36,920 nucleotides of DNA from Terriglobales bacterium. GTDB taxonomy: Bacteria; Acidobacteriota; Terriglobia; Terriglobales; Acidobacteriaceae. The stretch covers positions 1-36,920 of the forward strand of contig DASYVL010000112.1 in assembly GCA_035937135.1 (NCBI GenBank). Reading direction: 5' to 3'. The number at the start of each line of letters is the position of its first letter. Position 1 is the first letter of the stretch. Position numbers and translations under genes: made by a program. Positions 10,249-16,154 of this stretch are shown here, one piece after another. The notes beneath the pieces were generated by a model. The model worked only from the letters and a program-made list of their open reading frames with translations, ran no database searches and was not told where the DNA came from.

Positions 10249-10743
10249 TTACCTTCGAACGGCTCGGGATTTACTCTTTTTTCGCTCCACCAGCAGCACC
10301 GCCACCTGGGCGATGGCGGTGTTCTTCAGCTTCAGCCCCTCGGGCGTCTTGGCTTTGACGCCGACCGCGCCGGGCGCGACGCCCAGGAGCCTGGCCACCT
10401 GCTTCTGGATGCGCTTGGCATGAGGCCCGATCTTGGGCGCCGCCAGGATCAGCGTCGAATCCACGTTGGCGACCGCGTAGCCGGCACGCGCCACCTGCTG
10501 CAGCGCTTCGCGCACGAAGATAGTGGAGTCGGCGCCCTTCCATTTCTTGTCCGAAGGAGGGAAGTACGACCCGATGTCACCCGCCGCCACCGCGCCCAGC
10601 AAAGCGTCGGTGAGCGCGTGCAGCAGCACGTCGCCGTCAGAGTGGCCGGCCAGGCCGCTCGCGTGTGCCAGCCGTATCCCGCCGATCTTCAGCGGGATCC
10701 CCTTGCGGAATTCGTGCGAGTCCCAACCGATGCCGATGCGCAT
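10249..10743 (-). CDS. ispF: 2-C-methyl-D-erythritol 2,4-cyclodiphosphate synthase
   Basis: IspF converts CDP-methylerythritol 2-phosphate to methylerythritol cyclodiphosphate and CMP in the non-mevalonate isoprenoid pathway. The protein has 164 residues, the usual length. Metal ligands fall at the canonical positions: Asp8 and His10 in GWDSHEF, and His42 in HSDGDVLLHAL. The C-terminal CMP-binding part VKAKTPEGL is present. The ATG at 10743 shares one base with the ispD stop (TGATG); a GTG three bases earlier is an alternative. The overlap implies coupled translation. The last residues (ERKKSKSRAVRR) form a short basic extension. Confidence 0.97.
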   Translation of the reverse strand: MRIGIGWDSHEFRKGIPLKIGGIRLAHASGLAGHSDGDVLLHALTDALLGAVAAGDIGSYFPPSDKKWKGADSTIFVREALQQVARAGYAVANVDSTLILAAPKIGPHAKRIQKQVARLLGVAPGAVGVKAKTPEGLKLKNTAIAQVAVLLVERKKSKSRAVRR

Positions 10744-11474
10744 CACCGACCCCGCTTTTCCTGCGAAAGATAGAACTCCGCCAGCTCCAAGTCCGCCGGC
10801 GTCGTGATCTTGATGTTGCGGGCCGAGCCCATCACCACCGCCACCTCGTGCCCTGCGCGCTCCACCAGCGAAGCCTCGTCGGTGCCGGTGAAGCCGTCAG
10901 CCAGCGCCTCCTCGAAGGCCTTCTTCAAGACCGCGCAGCGAAAGCCCTGCGGCGTTTGCACCTGCACCACGCGCTCGCGGGGGATGGTAGCGGTCACGAT
11001 GGCGCCGTCGGCAGTGCGCTCCACCTGCTTGACCGTGTCCACCGCCGGCACGCCGGCGATGGCCGCGCCGTGCTTTTGCGCCGCGTCAATCACGCTGCGG
11101 ATGATCTCGAGATCCACGAAGGGGCGGACCGCATCGTGTACCAGCACGATGTCCTCGGCTTCCGCCTTCACCTGCGCCAGCGCGTTGGCCACCGACTGCT
11201 GCCGGCTCTCCCCGCCTTCTACCAGATGCACCTTCTTCCCCAAATCCTCTTTTTCCAGGCGGCTCCGGAACGGTTCGACCTCGCCCTTGGGAAGCGCAAC
11301 GTAGATCTCATTCACGGATTCGGCGGCAGCGAACTTGCGCAGGGTAAGGATGAGGATGGGCACGCCGCCGATCTCGGTGAACTGCTTGGAGGGGCCTGGC
11401 TTCTTGCCCGGCTTGGACGGCAGGGCCATGCGCGTCCCCAGGCCGGCGGCGGGAATGATGACGATGACTTTCAT
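10743..11474 (-). CDS. ispD: 2-C-methyl-D-erythritol 4-phosphate cytidylyltransferase
   Basis: IspD transfers CMP from CTP to methylerythritol 4-phosphate, two steps before IspF. It has 243 residues. The nucleotide-binding loop PAAGLGTRM is at the N terminus with Arg15, and the essential lysine is in PSKQF (Lys30). VHDAVRPFV and a C-terminal TTPADLELAEF are family hallmarks. The frame is open further upstream to 11582, but those residues are low-complexity Arg/Ser/Pro. The protein clearly begins at MKVIVIIPAAG, so I place the start at 11474. It lies 46 bp after the PIN/TRAM gene and overlaps ispF. IspE would have to be encoded elsewhere. Confidence 0.96.
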   Translation of the reverse strand: MKVIVIIPAAGLGTRMALPSKPGKKPGPSKQFTEIGGVPILILTLRKFAAAESVNEIYVALPKGEVEPFRSRLEKEDLGKKVHLVEGGESRQQSVANALAQVKAEAEDIVLVHDAVRPFVDLEIIRSVIDAAQKHGAAIAGVPAVDTVKQVERTADGAIVTATIPRERVVQVQTPQGFRCAVLKKAFEEALADGFTGTDEASLVERAGHEVAVVMGSARNIKITTPADLELAEFYLSQEKRGR

Positions 11475-11520
11475 GAGGGGCGAAAAGTATAAACCACCGA
11501 GCCCGCGCCGGGGCTCGACG

Positions 11521-12588
11521 CTACTCCGCGGGCCGCTCCGCGGCGACCGGCTGCGGCTTGCGCTCCGGGCGGGGTTCGGCACGGCTGGCGGCGCCGCGCT
11601 CGTCGAACTTGCCGAAAATCATCTTCCCCGCCGTGGTCTGTAGCACCGAGGTCACGGAAATGTCCACCGTCTTGCCGATCATCTTGCGCGCGTTGTCCAC
11701 CACCACCATGGTGCCATCGTCCAGGTAAGCGACGCCCTGGTTGTACTCCTTGCCCTCTTTGAGGATGAACACCTTCATGATCTCGCCCGGCAGCACGATG
11801 GGTTTCAAGGAATTGGCCAGCTCGTTGATGTTGAGCACGGCCACGCCCTGCAGTTGCGCCACCTTGTTGAGGTTGAAGTCGTTGGTGACGATCTTGGCCT
11901 CGTAGGCCTTGGCCAGCTCGATCAGCTTCAGGTCCACCTCGCGGATAGTGGGAAAGTCGTCCTCGATGAACTGGAGGTCGAGCACGGCCATCTTCTGCAG
12001 GCGTTGCAGGATGTCCAGGCCGCGGCGGCCGCGGTTGCGCTTGAGCGAGTCGGCGGAATCGGCCACAAGTTGCAGCTCGCGCAACACGAACTGGGGGATC
12101 ATGATGATGCCGTCCACAAACCCGGTCTCGGCGACGTCGGCGATGCGCCCGTCGATGATCACGCTGGTGTCCAGGATCTTGTAGCTCTTCTTGGACTGCT
12201 TCTCGCCCCCGAAGATGCCACCCAGCGCCGCCAGGTTCAGCAGGTCGCCCTTGTTGGCGCCCACGATCAGGCCTACATAGGCCATCAGCAGCATGACCAG
12301 CAGCTGCAGGAAGCTCTGGGTGCTACCCGCGGCCAGGCTGTTGTGGATGACCAGGCTGAACAGGTAGGCGCCGAGGATGCCCAGGATGCTGCCGATGGCC
12401 GCCCCGATCAGCCGCTTCAGGCTGATGGCGCGCAGGCGCATCTCGAACAGGATGATGGCGAGACCCATGCCAGCCCCGGCTGCAGCGGCGGCAGGCGCCG
12501 GCCACTTCGAAAGGCCGAAGGGCTGCAGGATCCAGCAAGCAACAGCTACGATCAGAACAAAAATCAGACGAATGACAGCCATGTCCAT
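11521..12588 (-). CDS. PIN and TRAM domain membrane protein (YacL-like)
   Basis: This 355-residue protein has an N-terminal membrane region of about four helices (residues 3-120). A PIN nuclease-like domain starts at [15 protein letters not shown] and includes the acidic positions in TSVIIDG, LRELQ and [14 protein letters not shown]-like RNA-binding domain follows ([21 protein letters not shown]) and ends in a low-complexity tail. Proteins of this build (B. subtilis YacL type) often sit next to ispD and ispF, as here. PIN domains are usually metal-dependent RNases; the target is unknown. I chose the ATG at 12588 because GGAGG lies seven bases upstream; the frame continues to 12612 without support. 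The protein would hold an RNA-binding module at the inner face of the membrane. Confidence 0.92.
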
Positions 12589-12769
12589 AGCGGGACCTCC
12601 GTATGGAGCCACTCTCTGCCCGCCCCTGTGGAGTCGCCGAAACGGCTGTCGAAGGACGCGGCAAGAACGGTCCCGTACTGCTCAATAGCGGAGCGTATGA
12701 AGGAGAAGGAATGTGCTCCGCCCGCCGCCCGCAAAGCGGGACAGCGGAAACAAAACCAGTATGGCGGGA

Positions 12770-12798
12770 AGTATAACGCACCCGCGGATAGTTATCTA
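12770..12798 (-). promoter_or_regulatory. Probable promoter of the yacL-ispD-ispF-M14 unit
   Basis: Read on the minus strand, TAGATA (12798-12793) and TATACT (12775-12770) are 17 bp apart and match 4/6 and 5/6 of the sigma-70 consensus. They lie in a locally AT-rich patch. The start of transcription would be near 12763, leaving a ~175-nt leader before the PIN/TRAM ATG. Confidence 0.4.
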
Positions 12799-12987
12799 TT
12801 GAGTTAACAGAGGCAGCTTGGTTTTTTGTTGACCGGAGAGATAACAGGCCGCATTGTGGTGGCGGCGCGCGACCCAGGAAGGCGGGCCCCGGGAGCGCCG
12901 CAAGCGAGAATCCTTGAGTTAGGCCGAACCCGAAACTGGGAGATGAGCGGCCGTCGTCCTTCCCGAAGCTGGGGGGGGACACTATAA

Positions 12988-13030
12988 AGAGCCGGCGCAA
13001 ATTCTCGGGGGAGAAACGCGCCGGCTTTTT
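12988..13030 (+). terminator. Strong intrinsic terminator without an obvious gene
   Basis: AGCCGGCGC (12990-12998) pairs perfectly with GCGCCGGCT (13018-13026), and T5 follows on the plus strand. The loop itself contains a second small hairpin (TTCTC/GAGAA around GGGG). The A residues before the first arm extend the stem with the T run. No plus-strand gene lies upstream within the intergenic region, so it may end a small RNA. It could also block transcripts entering from either side. Confidence 0.65.
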
Positions 13031-13122
13031 AATTGTGCAGTAGAACCGGCCATCTCGGAAGTCAGGTGTCCTACGAGGTGTCCAGACCGTGCCGTCCCCG
13101 CCGCCCAAATCAGGCAAAGACC

Positions 13123-13276
13123 GTGTGGCACAGGCGTCCTCGCCTGTGCCCCCGGCCGGAGCGCCTCTCCCGTAGAGGCGGCCGTCAGGCCGTCTCCCAG
13201 AAGGATCGTGTGGATGCGGGCGACTCGCCCGCGCGCGGAAAAGGCCGCAAGCCACGCGGCCCGGCCGCCCGCATCC
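13123..13276. repeat. Cluster of palindromic (REP-like) hairpin repeats
   Basis: Several perfect inverted repeats lie in a row: GGCACAGGCG/CGCCTGTGCC (13127-13150, loop TCCT), GCCTCT/AGAGGC (13163-13179), GGCC-GTCA-GGCC (13180-13191) and GCGGGCG-ACT-CGCCCGC (13216-13232). In addition GGATGCGGGCG (13212-13222) pairs perfectly with CGCCCGCATCC (13266-13276). The first hairpin has the same frame (GTGTGGCACAG...CTGTGC) as one found inside the 5' end of dusB (31661-31690), so it belongs to a dispersed family. Confidence 0.65.
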
Positions 13277-13480
13277 CGCCAAACATCCCGGCAACCCTCC
13301 CCCCGTTATCGCTCACTAAACATCCGTAATGCCGTCCAATGCAGGGAGTGGGGTCCGAACGGGCCGGCTCCGGGGACGGGGTCGAGCCGAAAAAGACCGG
13401 AAACTTTAAGCCCCTGGGAGACGTAATTACTTGGTGAATGCCGGAGCGCAGTACGCGCTGCGGCGGCAGGAAAAGGTTAA

Positions 13481-13582
13481 GGGGTTAAACAGATCGTTCC
13501 GCCGACGGGTTGGAGGCCTCGGGGCGTGGGCGATCTCAAGGGAAAGGCGGGTCCGCGAGGACGCGTCTTTTCGTTTAACCCC
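13481..13582 (+). other. Candidate structured RNA / long-range inverted repeat
   Basis: GGGGTTAAAC (13481-13490) is the exact reverse complement of GTTTAACCCC (13573-13582), 82 bases away. Directly inside it AGATCG (13491-13496) pairs with CGATCT (13531-13536), and GTCC-GCGA-GGAC near 13552-13563 forms a stem closed by a GNRA tetraloop. Together these fit a closing stem with two inner arms, i.e. a three-way-junction RNA of ~100 nt. It lies 108 bp before the next start codon, so it may be the leader of that gene or a separate small RNA. I cannot assign it to a known riboswitch class. Confidence 0.45.
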
Positions 13583-13690
13583 GCGGCACATTCTAGGCCT
13601 CCGCAACGGAAATGCAAGAGGCGTTCGCAGCCCGACCGCGGCCGCCCTTGCCGTGGTTCAGGCTGAGGCCTGGGAAAAGAGAGGAACATC

Positions 13691-14044
13691 ATGAAATTCG
13701 CAAAACTGACCCGAGTGCTGGTTCCGGTGTTGGTGCTGGCGCTCACCGCCACCGCCTTTGCCGCCAACGGCGCGGCGACGGTGAAGCTGTTCAGCGCGGC
13801 ACAACTCAACGGCAAGTCACTGGCCGCCGGGGAATACAAGGTCAAGTGGGACAGCCACAGTCCGGAGGCGGACGTGACCTTCCTGCAGGGTAAGACCGCG
13901 GTAGCAACGGCCCACGCCAAGCTGGTGGACCGCGACCAGGCATCGCCGGAGAACGTGGTCGTCACCCACGCCAACAGCGACGGATCGGAGACCATCGTCG
14001 AGATCCGCTTTGAGGGCAAGAAGTCGGTCCTGGTGTTCGAGTAA
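13691..14044 (+). CDS. Small secreted protein of unknown function
   Basis: This 117-residue protein has a clear signal peptide (MKFAKLTRVLVPVLVLALTA, cleavage after AFA-A). One small domain follows, predicted to be mainly beta: ATVKLFSAAQLNGKSLAAGE, YKVKWDSHSPEADVTFLQGK, AKLVDRDQASPENVVVTHAN and IVEIRFEGKKSVLVFE. There are no cysteines. Acidobacterial genomes carry many short exported proteins of this build ('LNGKxLxAGEYKVxW...'), none with a known role that I can cite. GAGAGGA upstream gives a good ribosome site. The long upstream region with a structured element suggests regulated expression. Confidence 0.8.
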   Translation: MKFAKLTRVLVPVLVLALTATAFAANGAATVKLFSAAQLNGKSLAAGEYKVKWDSHSPEADVTFLQGKTAVATAHAKLVDRDQASPENVVVTHANSDGSETIVEIRFEGKKSVLVFE

Positions 14045-14093
14045 TCGGCGGCCGCGGCGGCCCGGCGACGCGGGCCGCTCTCAGGCCATGGAA

Positions 14094-14130
14094 AAGCCCC
14101 GGCACCCTCAACCTGGGCGTGCCGGGGCTT
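14094..14130 (-). terminator. Terminator of the mec-cysO-moeZ operon
   Basis: A perfect 12-bp stem, AAGCCCCGGCAC (14094-14105) with GTGCCGGGGCTT (14119-14130), has a 13-base loop. Read on the minus strand it starts 28 bp after the moeZ stop and is followed by TTTT. It also lies 50 bp after the plus-strand stop at 14044 and may serve both directions, but the T run favours the minus strand. Confidence 0.8.
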
Positions 14131-14158
14131 CGCCATCCTGGGATGGATGCGGTCGACC

Positions 14159-15334
14159 TCAGTACTTCGGCATCCTGGGGTCGATGCGGTCGGCCCAGGC
14201 CAGAATGCCGCCCGTCAGGTTCCAGACCTTGCGGAAGCCGGCAGCGCGCAGGAACTCCACCGCATCGGCGCTGCGCTTGCCGGAGCGGCAGTGGGCGACG
14301 ATCTCGCGGCTGGAGTCGAGCTCGTGCACGCGCTTGGCCAGGTCGCCCAGCGGGATGAGGTGGCCCTGCAGGTTGCAGATCTGGTATTCGTGGGGCTCGC
14401 GCACGTCGAGCACGAAGACGTCCTCCCCAGCGTCCAGCCTGCGCTTCAGCTCTTCCACCTCGATGGCCGGCACTTGCGTGGCCATGGAAGCCTGCTCGGC
14501 GCGGACGCCGCAGAATTCCTGATAGTCGATCAGCTCATGGATGGTCGGATTCGCTCCGCACACCGGGCACTGCGGATTCTTGCGCAGCTTGAGCTCGCGA
14601 AACCTCATGCTCATGGCGTCCACCAGAAGCAGCCGCCCGATCAGCGATTGCTCGCGGTCGGCGCCCAGGATTAGCTTGATGGTTTCCGTCGCCTGGATCA
14701 CGCCCACCAGCCCCGGCAGGATTCCCAGCACGCCTCCTTCGGCGCACGAGGGTACCAGCCCCGGTGGCGGCGGTTCGGGATAGAGGCAGCGGTAGCAGGG
14801 GCCGTCTTTCGCGGCGAAGACGCTGGCCTGCCCTTCAAAGCGGAAGATGGAGCCATAGACGTTGGGCTTGCCGGTGAGCACGCAGGCGTCGTTCACCAGG
14901 TAGCGGGTGGGGAAGTTGTCGGTGCCGTCGGCGACGATGTCGAACTGGCGGAAAAGCTCGAGCGCGTTGGCGCTGGTCAGCTTGGTGTCGAACTTCCGCA
15001 CCTCGACCTGCGGGTTGATGCCGGCCAGCGTCTCCGCCGCCGAATCCAGCTTCTTGCGGCCCACGTCCGCGGTGGAGTGCAGGATCTGCCGCTGCAGGTT
15101 GGTGAAGTCCACCACGTCGAAATCCACCAGGCCCAGCGTGCCTACGCCCGCCGCCGCCAGGTACAGGGCCAGCGGCGATCCCAGTCCGCCCGCCCCGATG
15201 CACAGCACCTTCGCCGCCTTCAGCTTGAGCTGCCCCTCCATGCCCACCTCGGGCATGATCAGGTGGCGCGAGTAGCGCAGCACTTCCTCGTTGGAGAGTG
15301 TGCCGGTCTCGGGTTTCTGGGTAACGGCTTTCAT
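14159..15334 (-). CDS. moeZ: MoeZ-like sulfur-carrier adenylyltransferase/sulfurtransferase (ThiF/MoeB + rhodanese)
   Basis: This E1-like enzyme (391 residues) adenylates the C-terminal glycine of a ubiquitin-like sulfur carrier and then loads sulfur through its rhodanese domain. The ThiF/MoeB domain (about 20-265) has the ATP loop GAGGLGSPLALYLAAAG, the DFDVVDFTNLQRQ motif, and two CxxC pairs for zinc (CYRC and CPVC). The rhodanese domain (about 285-391) has its active-site cysteine in HCRSGKRS (near 349). The frame continues to 15394, but those codons lie in a repeat; MKAVTQKPETGT at 15334 has AGGTG upstream and fits the family. The upstream neighbour encodes the likely carrier, so partner and enzyme are co-expressed. 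Confidence 0.92.
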   Translation of the reverse strand: MKAVTQKPETGTLSNEEVLRYSRHLIMPEVGMEGQLKLKAAKVLCIGAGGLGSPLALYLAAAGVGTLGLVDFDVVDFTNLQRQILHSTADVGRKKLDSAAETLAGINPQVEVRKFDTKLTSANALELFRQFDIVADGTDNFPTRYLVNDACVLTGKPNVYGSIFRFEGQASVFAAKDGPCYRCLYPEPPPPGLVPSCAEGGVLGILPGLVGVIQATETIKLILGADREQSLIGRLLLVDAMSMRFRELKLRKNPQCPVCGANPTIHELIDYQEFCGVRAEQASMATQVPAIEVEELKRRLDAGEDVFVLDVREPHEYQICNLQGHLIPLGDLAKRVHELDSSREIVAHCRSGKRSADAVEFLRAAGFRKVWNLTGGILAWADRIDPRMPKY

Positions 15335-15370
15335 CGCACCTGAATGCAGATTGCAGATTCGGGGATTCTT

Positions 15371-15403
15371 CAATCGCCAATCGTCAATCGTCAATAGTCA
15401 ATT
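15371..15403. repeat. Heptamer tandem repeat between cysO and moeZ
   Basis: Four heptamers in a row read CAATCGC, CAATCGT, CAATCGT, CAATAGT, and a fifth begins (CAATT). The array ends directly at the cysO stop codon. Because it is open in the moeZ frame it creates a false 20-residue N-terminal extension of MoeZ. Confidence 0.7.
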
Positions 15404-15673
15404 CTACCCTCCCGCAATCGAGGGGACGATGGACAGGTTGTCGCCTTCTTTCACCGGGGTGTTCTCCTGTTGCAGGTAGCGGATGTCTTCGTCGTTGAGG
15501 TAGAAGTTCACGAAGGCGCGCAGCTTGCCGTCGTCGGTGTACAGGTGGCGGCGCAGGTCCGGATACTGCGCGGTGAGGGCGGCCAGCCCTTGGCCGGCCG
15601 TGCTGCCGGCGACCTCCACCACGTCCTTCTTCTCCGCGTACGGGCGCAGCGGGGTGGGGATATGGATCTTCAT
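15404..15673 (-). CDS. cysO: CysO-like ubiquitin-fold sulfur carrier (MoaD/ThiS family)
   Basis: This 89-residue beta-grasp protein ends in the Gly-Gly tail (VPSIAGG) that is adenylated and thiocarboxylated by MoeB/MoeZ enzymes. It is closer to mycobacterial CysO than to MoaD or ThiS: MKIHIPTPLRPYAEKK, LRAFVNFYLNDEDIRYL and DNLSIVPSIAGG match my recollection of the CysO pattern. In CysO the thiocarboxylate gives its sulfur to O-phosphoserine through CysM, and Mec frees the cysteine. The start is one of two adjacent ATGs (15676 or 15673) behind AAGGGG. It sits between mec (25 bp) and moeZ (69 bp) on the same strand. A general MoaD-like role in cofactor synthesis remains possible. Confidence 0.85.
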   Translation of the reverse strand: MKIHIPTPLRPYAEKKDVVEVAGSTAGQGLAALTAQYPDLRRHLYTDDGKLRAFVNFYLNDEDIRYLQQENTPVKEGDNLSIVPSIAGG

Positions 15674-15698
15674 CATTCCCCTTAGATGTATGCCGCGC

Positions 15699-16154
15699 TT
15701 AACGGGATTCAACCGAAGCAGCCCCTACGACCTCGATCTCCTCATCCACGAAGTGCTTTTCCTCTTCGCTTTGGCCGGCCAGCTCGAAAGAGCAGGTGCG
15801 GCTGGCCCGCCCGCCTTCCACAGAGGTGATCACGTAGGAGCAGCCCGTCCAGTGCGCCTCGGCCAGGTCGGTCTCGGACCAGCGCGCCGGATGGTCGGGA
15901 TGCGAGTGGTAAAAGCCGACCACATCCTCCCCGCGCTCCCGCGCCTCGCGCTGGATGCGGAGCAGCTCCTTGGGGTCGATGTTGTAGCGGTTCTGCGGCG
16001 AGTCGCTGCGGGTGTTGCCGCAGCGCTCGACCGAGCTGACCCGACGCACCTCGGCTTCCAGCCGTCCCAGCAGCACCCCACAGCACTCGTTGGGGTAGGT
16101 TTCTTCCCCGTGGCGACGGAGGCCCTCCAGCGCGAATTGGGAGATTCTGAGCAT
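15699..16154 (-). CDS. mec: Mec-like JAMM/MPN+ metalloprotease
   Basis: This 151-residue zinc protease is of the JAB1/MPN+ (M67) type. The motif is complete: Glu23 in YPNECCGVLLG, and HSHPDHPARWSETD (His-x-His, then Ser and Asp). In mycobacteria the homologue Mec cleaves cysteine from the C terminus of CysO after sulfur transfer. The neighbouring cysO-like and moeZ-like genes make the same role likely here. In other bacteria, similar enzymes trim inactive C-terminal tails from ThiS/MoaD proteins; this CysO already ends in GG, so tail trimming is not needed. It is the first gene of the operon. The C-terminal ~20 residues are an acidic extension. Confidence 0.85.
   Translation of the reverse strand: MLRISQFALEGLRRHGEETYPNECCGVLLGRLEAEVRRVSSVERCGNTRSDSPQNRYNIDPKELLRIQREARERGEDVVGFYHSHPDHPARWSETDLAEAHWTGCSYVITSVEGGRASRTCSFELAGQSEEEKHFVDEEIEVVGAASVESR

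Follow-up and report, generated by a model that had tools for sequence, protein, structure and literature searches.

What kind of RNA, if any, is encoded by the roughly hundred bases that fold into a candidate three-way junction ahead of a small secreted protein gene in the window, that is, the whole analyzed stretch of 36,920 nucleotides? The first-pass annotation had placed the region before such a gene and proposed either a regulatory leader or a small RNA. The gene is indeed found there, on the plus strand, and our results support this pair of readings, with the leader favored of the two because the RNA keeps its place before the gene, an ECF-type box stands upstream, and a weak pattern scan detected no terminator between RNA and gene. 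Based on comparative sequence analysis, the region is probably (at about 70%) a conserved, structured, cis-acting 5′ leader RNA of an undescribed family, belonging to an ECF-driven regulon in Acidobacteriota of the window's class.

The junction fold of the window exceeds chance and is strand-specific. The plus strand of 13481-13582 folds at −59.5 kcal/mol compared to a shuffled mean of −38.2 (z −6.38), and none of 200 shuffles was equally stable. The minus strand reaches −39.3 kcal/mol (z −2.73), with 2 of 200 shuffles equally stable. All three stems described by the first-pass annotation were located where it had placed them, including a closing stem of ten base pairs without a mismatch. Its second stem, AGATCG/CGATCT, is present (13491-13496/13531-13536) but longer than the six pairs given, as it forms the base of a nine-pair helix with two G-U pairs, which is followed by an upper helix CGCC/GGCG (13500-13503/13523-13526). 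The third stem consists of a lower helix (13541-13549/13564-13572) and a top of GTCC/GGAC (13551-13554/13559-13562), capped by a GCGA loop at 13555-13558. This GNRA loop is real in the window, but the P3 loops of relatives read TTGC, TTTT and others, and we rejected it as a functional feature. A protein-coding reading of 13481-13582 was likewise discarded: the overlapping open reading frames are merely mechanical, in keeping with the earlier statement that no protein gene crosses the stretch, and the changes in relatives track pairing.

Table 1. Features of the leader region in the window, with their basis.
Feature	Position	Strand	Basis or remark
ECF-sigma-type promoter box GAAAC-N17-CGTA	13400..13425	+	variant of GGAAC-N16/17-CGTA, letters checked
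P0 hairpin (tentative)	13440..13467	+	leader fold; between the inferred transcription start (~13431) and the junction
Three-way-junction core	13481..13582	+	folds, pairs checked, R1 score, covariation
P1	13481-13490/13573-13582	+	10/10 Watson-Crick pairs
P2	13491-13503/13523-13536	+	9 + 4 pairs and an apical part
P2 apical loop region ACGGGTTGGAGGCCTC	13505..13520	+	consensus over the RNA family is CGGTTTGGCGGCCC
P3	13541-13554/13559-13572	+	9 + 4 pairs
Conserved linker CATTCTAG	13589..13596	+	ATTNTA in the RNA family
P4 hairpin GCCTC/GAGGC	13597..13622	+	pairs checked
GCCGCC strip	13641..13646	+	complementary to the usual P2 loop GGCGGC
P5 small hairpin CAGGC/GCCTG (tentative)	13659..13672	+	by eye; before the ribosome-binding site
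Small secreted protein gene, 117 aa	13691..14044	+	signal peptide by eye

To search for relatives, we used a covariance model (R1) with hand-drawn stems, seeded with 10 of the first 17 copies, which were picked because they aligned well. R1 scores 88.9 bits on the plus strand of the window and 22.8 on the minus strand. Among 398 genomes drawn from the window's taxonomic family, it detected the RNA in 117 (E up to 0.01). In the class sample the count was 44 of 399 (E up to 1e-4) and in the phylum sample 5 of 297, these five all being members of the window's taxonomic family; the three samples overlap. The 44 genomes of the class sample comprise 20 of the window's taxonomic family, 19 of family f5, 4 of f7 and 1 of f10, and separate searches (E up to 0.001) gave 19 of 39 genomes in f5 and 4 of 89 in f7. 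Furthermore, among the 80 loci listed by a pattern scan of named genomes, some of them in assemblies already contained in the other samples, R1 matched 28 of 30 acidobacterial loci and none of the 50 others. These 28 include Terriglobia, Acidobacteriaceae, Ca. Sulfotelmatobacter, and Acidobacteria gp1 and gp13. As far as the searches reach, the RNA seems confined to Acidobacteriota. The window's own genome holds one full junction match, and its remaining matches are 27 bases or shorter.

The presence of the RNA was also followed from the gene. From 38 protein matches we obtained 30 homologue loci, of which 29 upstream stretches were inspected and one (L060) was left out at a contig end. The first-pass annotation had named loss of the stems in gene-keeping relatives as evidence against an RNA. 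The outcome is mixed, with the RNA preceding the gene homologue in 17 of the 29 stretches and absent from the other 12. One genome of the window's taxonomic family (G032, locus L061) carries diverged protein homologues and is without an R1 hit at the 0.01 E-value limit.

The structured junction is conserved in both sequence and pairing. Evidence for this comes mainly from 102 copies aligned to R1, made from 98 loci and not from every genome match. In this alignment, whose pair counts lean toward R1 because it was fitted to R1 and whose shuffle controls ignore kinship, standard pairs occupy 90.1% of cells (74.8 in shuffles) and both sides have changed in 25 of 29 pairs (21.9 in shuffles). Double-change cells number 399, compared to 110.8 in shuffles and 40−93 for slid partners, and the covariation score is 0.424, compared to 0.168 and at most 0.088, respectively. 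Compensatory changes, backing the secondary structure as is typical of leader RNAs, were found in P1, P2 and P3. Aligning related genomes had been proposed at the outset as a check, and it revealed strong compensatory change in all three stems, affecting six of the eight modelled pairs of the 10-bp stem. The sequence-only alignment of the 10 seed copies agrees in direction, at smaller size, with 86.6% paired and 20 double-change cells compared to 6−11 for slid partners.

Other approaches recovered the junction to varying degrees. RNAalifold, applied to sequence-only alignments of 17 and 43 copies, returned P2 alone (10 and 8 pairs); the larger alignment holds 43 of 70 selected sequences, nearly all from the window's taxonomic family, with L121, L280 and other diverged ones included. 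Folded singly, 14 of 17 cores give a three-way junction as judged by eye, and L054, L055 and L057 differ in part. Among 101 distinct cores, 88 have z below −2 (40 shuffles each). P1 shifts by one base and P3 varies in length among members. L278, a 29.7-bit copy without P3, was included in the covariation, downstream-gene, promoter-box and loop-strip longest-run counts of the full alignment, and left out of the 43-sequence selection, the core-fold and P0 z scores, and the ATTNTA, P4 and GCCGCC counts.

Within the junction, the P2 loop and its closing GG/CC pairs are nearly invariant over the 102 copies. The loop reads GGTTTGGCGGCC in most of them and GGGTTGGAGGCC in the window. The conserved stretch extends past 13582, at a minimum to the linker CATTCTAG, and possibly reaches the start codon at 13691. 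The corresponding ATTNTA follows P1 in 89 of 101 copies, so that nearly invariant unpaired residues in the P2 loop and in ATTNTA are framed by covarying helices, a trait of riboswitches. Downstream of it, P4 holds the conserved AAATGCAAG (13610-13618; AAANGCAAG in the RNA family), the last G of which joins the stem in the window. A GCAA-like motif was found within 40 bases in 93 of 101 copies, and 83 of 100 copies have a helix resembling P4; both counts are permissive and without a control. In L107 (1501-1690) and L116 (1431-1613), the predicted fold pairs one strand of P4 to the ribosome-binding site beside the start codon, which favors control of translation. At the place of P5, many relatives carry CCCGACG..TCGGG.

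Of 78 leaders from the window's taxonomic family, 69 carry the strip GCCGCC, complementary to the usual P2 loop, ahead of the start codon, compared to 3.5 expected from shuffles and 3 in the opposite orientation. It mostly lies 30−50 bases from the start codon (median 43). For these strip counts, as for the loop and T-run counts, start codons were set by a ribosome-site pattern and not singly. The window's own loop, GGAGG, has one mismatch to its GCCGCC strip; a perfect complement to the window loop GGAGGCC is offered by GGCCTCC (13596-13602), on a strand shared with P4. In L058, a loop TGGGAG faces CTCCCA at the matching place, a compensatory change, and L066 and L121 retain the loop-strip pairing via G-U. 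Among the 22 copies from f5, f7 and f10, a single one has GCCGCC; the variant TCGCCA, which supports loop-strip pairing, is present in 5 of 17 f5 copies. A longest-run test of loop against strip gave 7.4 (shuffles 6.2) in f1 and 6.5 (shuffles 6.5) in f5, and so barely discriminates. The case for a loop-strip contact consists mainly of conservation, plus one clear compensatory example.

The RNA mostly accompanies one gene family, yet is not tied to that family. The same-strand downstream open reading frame matches the small-protein profile in 95 of 102 copies, and in 94 of these 102 the match starts 70−226 bases past the RNA, a conserved same-strand place directly before a gene as is characteristic of leader RNAs. 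In the remaining profile-matching copy (L105), the match lies 625 bases on, behind a tandem second RNA copy that precedes the same gene. The other seven comprise four with other genes (L104, L107, L116, L110), two at a contig edge and L278 with a weak match. More specifically, L104, L107 and L116 (f7) carry the RNA before exported TPR proteins (by Pfam for L104 and L116, by eye for L107), and L110 (f5) before a secreted protein that has a HEIGH motif and matches matrixins at a score below cut-off. L285, also of f5, adds a case in which the RNA stands before a HEIGH protein that looks, by eye, like the one in L110. In total, the RNA is found in five copies ahead of secreted proteins of two other kinds, TPR and protease-like. 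Four f5 loci (L103, L105, L106, L111) contain two RNA copies about 490−970 bases apart; in L106 and L111 each copy has its own gene, forming two successive RNA-gene units, and in L103 the second copy runs into the contig end.

The protein encoded by the main partner gene is matched in 26 of the 61 genomes searched, among them the window's own. Its AlphaFold model is all-beta, with nine strands and a mean pLDDT of 85.9. Neither NCBIfam nor Pfam gave the 117-aa protein a match above cut-off; DUF2911 scores 15.6 bits on it, below the Pfam cut-off of 27 bits, and of 26 aligned members 12 match it at E up to 0.1, the best at 0.001. When the predicted structure was compared with known folds, no clear relative was listed, Foldseek reaching E 0.26 and VIA-align Z 3.9 at best, and a homologue search with the protein in genome contigs confirmed none.

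Upstream of the RNA, a promoter box recurs. GGAAC-N16-20-CGTA was found in 76 of the 101 copies with at least 150 upstream bases, compared to a single reverse-strand match and 0.25 in shuffles; all spacers found are 16 or 17, giving the shape GGAAC-N16/17-CGTA that we take to be typical of ECF-sigma promoters. The box stands 62−230 bases from the RNA, mostly 70−100. The window is outside the 76, as it reads GAAAC instead of GGAAC and does not match the strict pattern; from its GAAAC-N17-CGTA, transcription would start near 13431. A search for GGAACTT-N15-CGTA in the window's genome gave two matches, neither at the leader. Upstream of 41 of 101 copies stands a second promoter-like box, TAAC-N16-CGTCC(AA), which hints that the leader is preceded by a tandem pair of ECF-type promoters in relatives. 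In the window, CGTCCAA alone remains at about 13318-13346, the first half of the second box having diverged.

Regarding transcript ends, the weak pattern scan of the window detected no terminator on the way from the RNA to the gene, and among 95 leaders T5 occurs in 11 and a T6-like run in 4. Together, these results argue against an attenuator or a separate small RNA. The same scan misses, presumably due to its long loop, a GC-rich inverted repeat followed by a T run at 12990-13030 (AGCCGGCGC...GCGCCGGCTTTTT), which is probably a terminator.

From its position and the promoter box, we infer that the junction is transcribed as part of the mRNA leader, where it probably acts in cis on translation. 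In the proposed mechanism, an ECF-type sigma factor would start transcription, and the leader would fold into P0, the junction of P1, P2 and P3, the ATTNTA strip and P4, followed by the gene of the exported beta-sheet protein. The P2 loop, GGCGGCC in most members, could then pair with GCCGCC some 43 bases ahead of the start codon, and the presence or absence of this contact would set the ease of ribosome loading. We regard this last part of the scheme, that the P2 loop pairs with GCCGCC and thereby governs ribosome loading, as tentative and somewhat short of an even chance.

A more specific form of the leader would be a ligand-sensing riboswitch, with the junction as aptamer and P4 plus the strip as expression platform. 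The nearly invariant unpaired strips beside freely covarying stems speak for it, as do the predicted meeting of P4 with the ribosome-binding site in L107 and L116 and the occurrence of the RNA before three kinds of gene. However, the exported, TPR and protease-like proteins share no evident metabolite pathway, no ligand is suggested, and the ECF-type promoter already supplies the unit with an input. We regard a sensing leader as unlikely, and equally doubtful its fuller version, a new riboswitch class in which the P2 loop-strip contact lets ECF-driven messages for exported proteins be translated only with a small-molecule or ion signal. A leader that solely protects or stabilizes the mRNA, without sensing, would suit a very stable 5′ structure ahead of a short gene and the freely varying P0 and P3 sequences, but leaves the nearly invariant P2 loop, ATTNTA and GCCGCC strips unexplained, and we consider it improbable.

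The compact, very stable core, the ECF-type box upstream and the five copies retained before different genes could also point to a trans-acting small RNA that merely shares a transcript with the gene. Such an RNA would hardly need to stand immediately ahead of one gene family in 94 of 102 copies and before other secreted proteins in four more, with one before a tandem second copy and two at contig ends, nor would it require GCCGCC at a similar start-codon distance; combined with the terminator results above, this makes the small RNA a rather poor prospect. Nothing past a first look at one sequence favors a chance palindrome or mobile repeat, and the single full match in the window's genome, the covariation and the conserved place led us to reject it as extremely improbable. 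The cis-acting leader is thus our preferred explanation, although RNAalifold recovered P2 alone, three of 17 single folds lack the full junction, 12 of 29 homologue loci are without the RNA, and the window lacks the strict promoter pattern.

The covariance-model search recommended by the first-pass annotation was run with Rfam 15 and gave no match on the window at gathering scores. Permissive scans yielded five chance-level matches in window 12800-13800 (E up to 10), none of them on the junction, and four in 13 member loci (E up to 1); none of these nine comes near its family cut-off. The twister-sister ribozyme is a junction RNA with GCAAG-like loop motifs, and the likeness, a junction plus a GCAAG-like motif, is a lead only: unlike that ribozyme, the window RNA has no such Rfam match and no identified cleavage site. 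MicA and RybB, sigma-E-dependent small RNAs of enterobacteria, are likewise structured and stand behind an ECF-type promoter. The window RNA differs from them in lying directly before a gene and in having, by the weak scan of the window, no terminator pattern of its own. Closer counterparts are the orphan leader RNAs and candidate riboswitches described in PMC2864571, which similarly combine covarying stems, invariant loops, a fixed place before a gene and narrow taxa. Compared to these motifs, the window RNA has no Rfam family, is confined to Acidobacteriota as searched, and usually has an ECF-type box. The same paper tables two Acidobacteria RNA motifs, Acido-1 (RF01686) and Acido-Lenti-1 (RF01687), as not cis-regulatory ('n'); neither turned up in the permissive scans of the window (E up to 10) or of the 13 member loci (E up to 1). 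A search of PMC8632094 for acidobacterial and sigma-factor terms gave nothing. A literature search, with most subscription papers and a 2017 survey of 224 candidate RNAs outside its scope, gave no description of such an RNA. In kind, then, the RNA appears to be a structured leader, and its family appears to be new.

To our knowledge, regulatory RNAs have been little studied in Acidobacteriota, a phylum common in soils. What has been assembled here looks like an entire RNA family, undescribed so far: it has roughly one hundred distinct members, its promoter box recurs and its main gene partner is defined. The family links a structured RNA to ECF-type promoters and uncharacterized exported proteins. 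With the covariance model and the named member assemblies, a possible second, RNA-level control of such acidobacterial genes becomes directly testable.

Two further observations concern the surroundings of the junction. At the P0 site, hairpins are common in relatives and their sequences differ (median z −1.48, 50 of 72 below −1). In L069, L079, L084, L243 and L254, the P0 loop holds CCAACCAGC(C), partly complementary to GGTTTGG of the P2 loop, and a further long-range contact between the two loops is possible in these loci. On the minus strand of the window, 10743-16154 encodes IspD, a PIN-TRAM protein, a ThiF-rhodanese fusion, a ThiS-like protein and a JAB protein, a sulfur-carrier cluster adjoining the leader gene.
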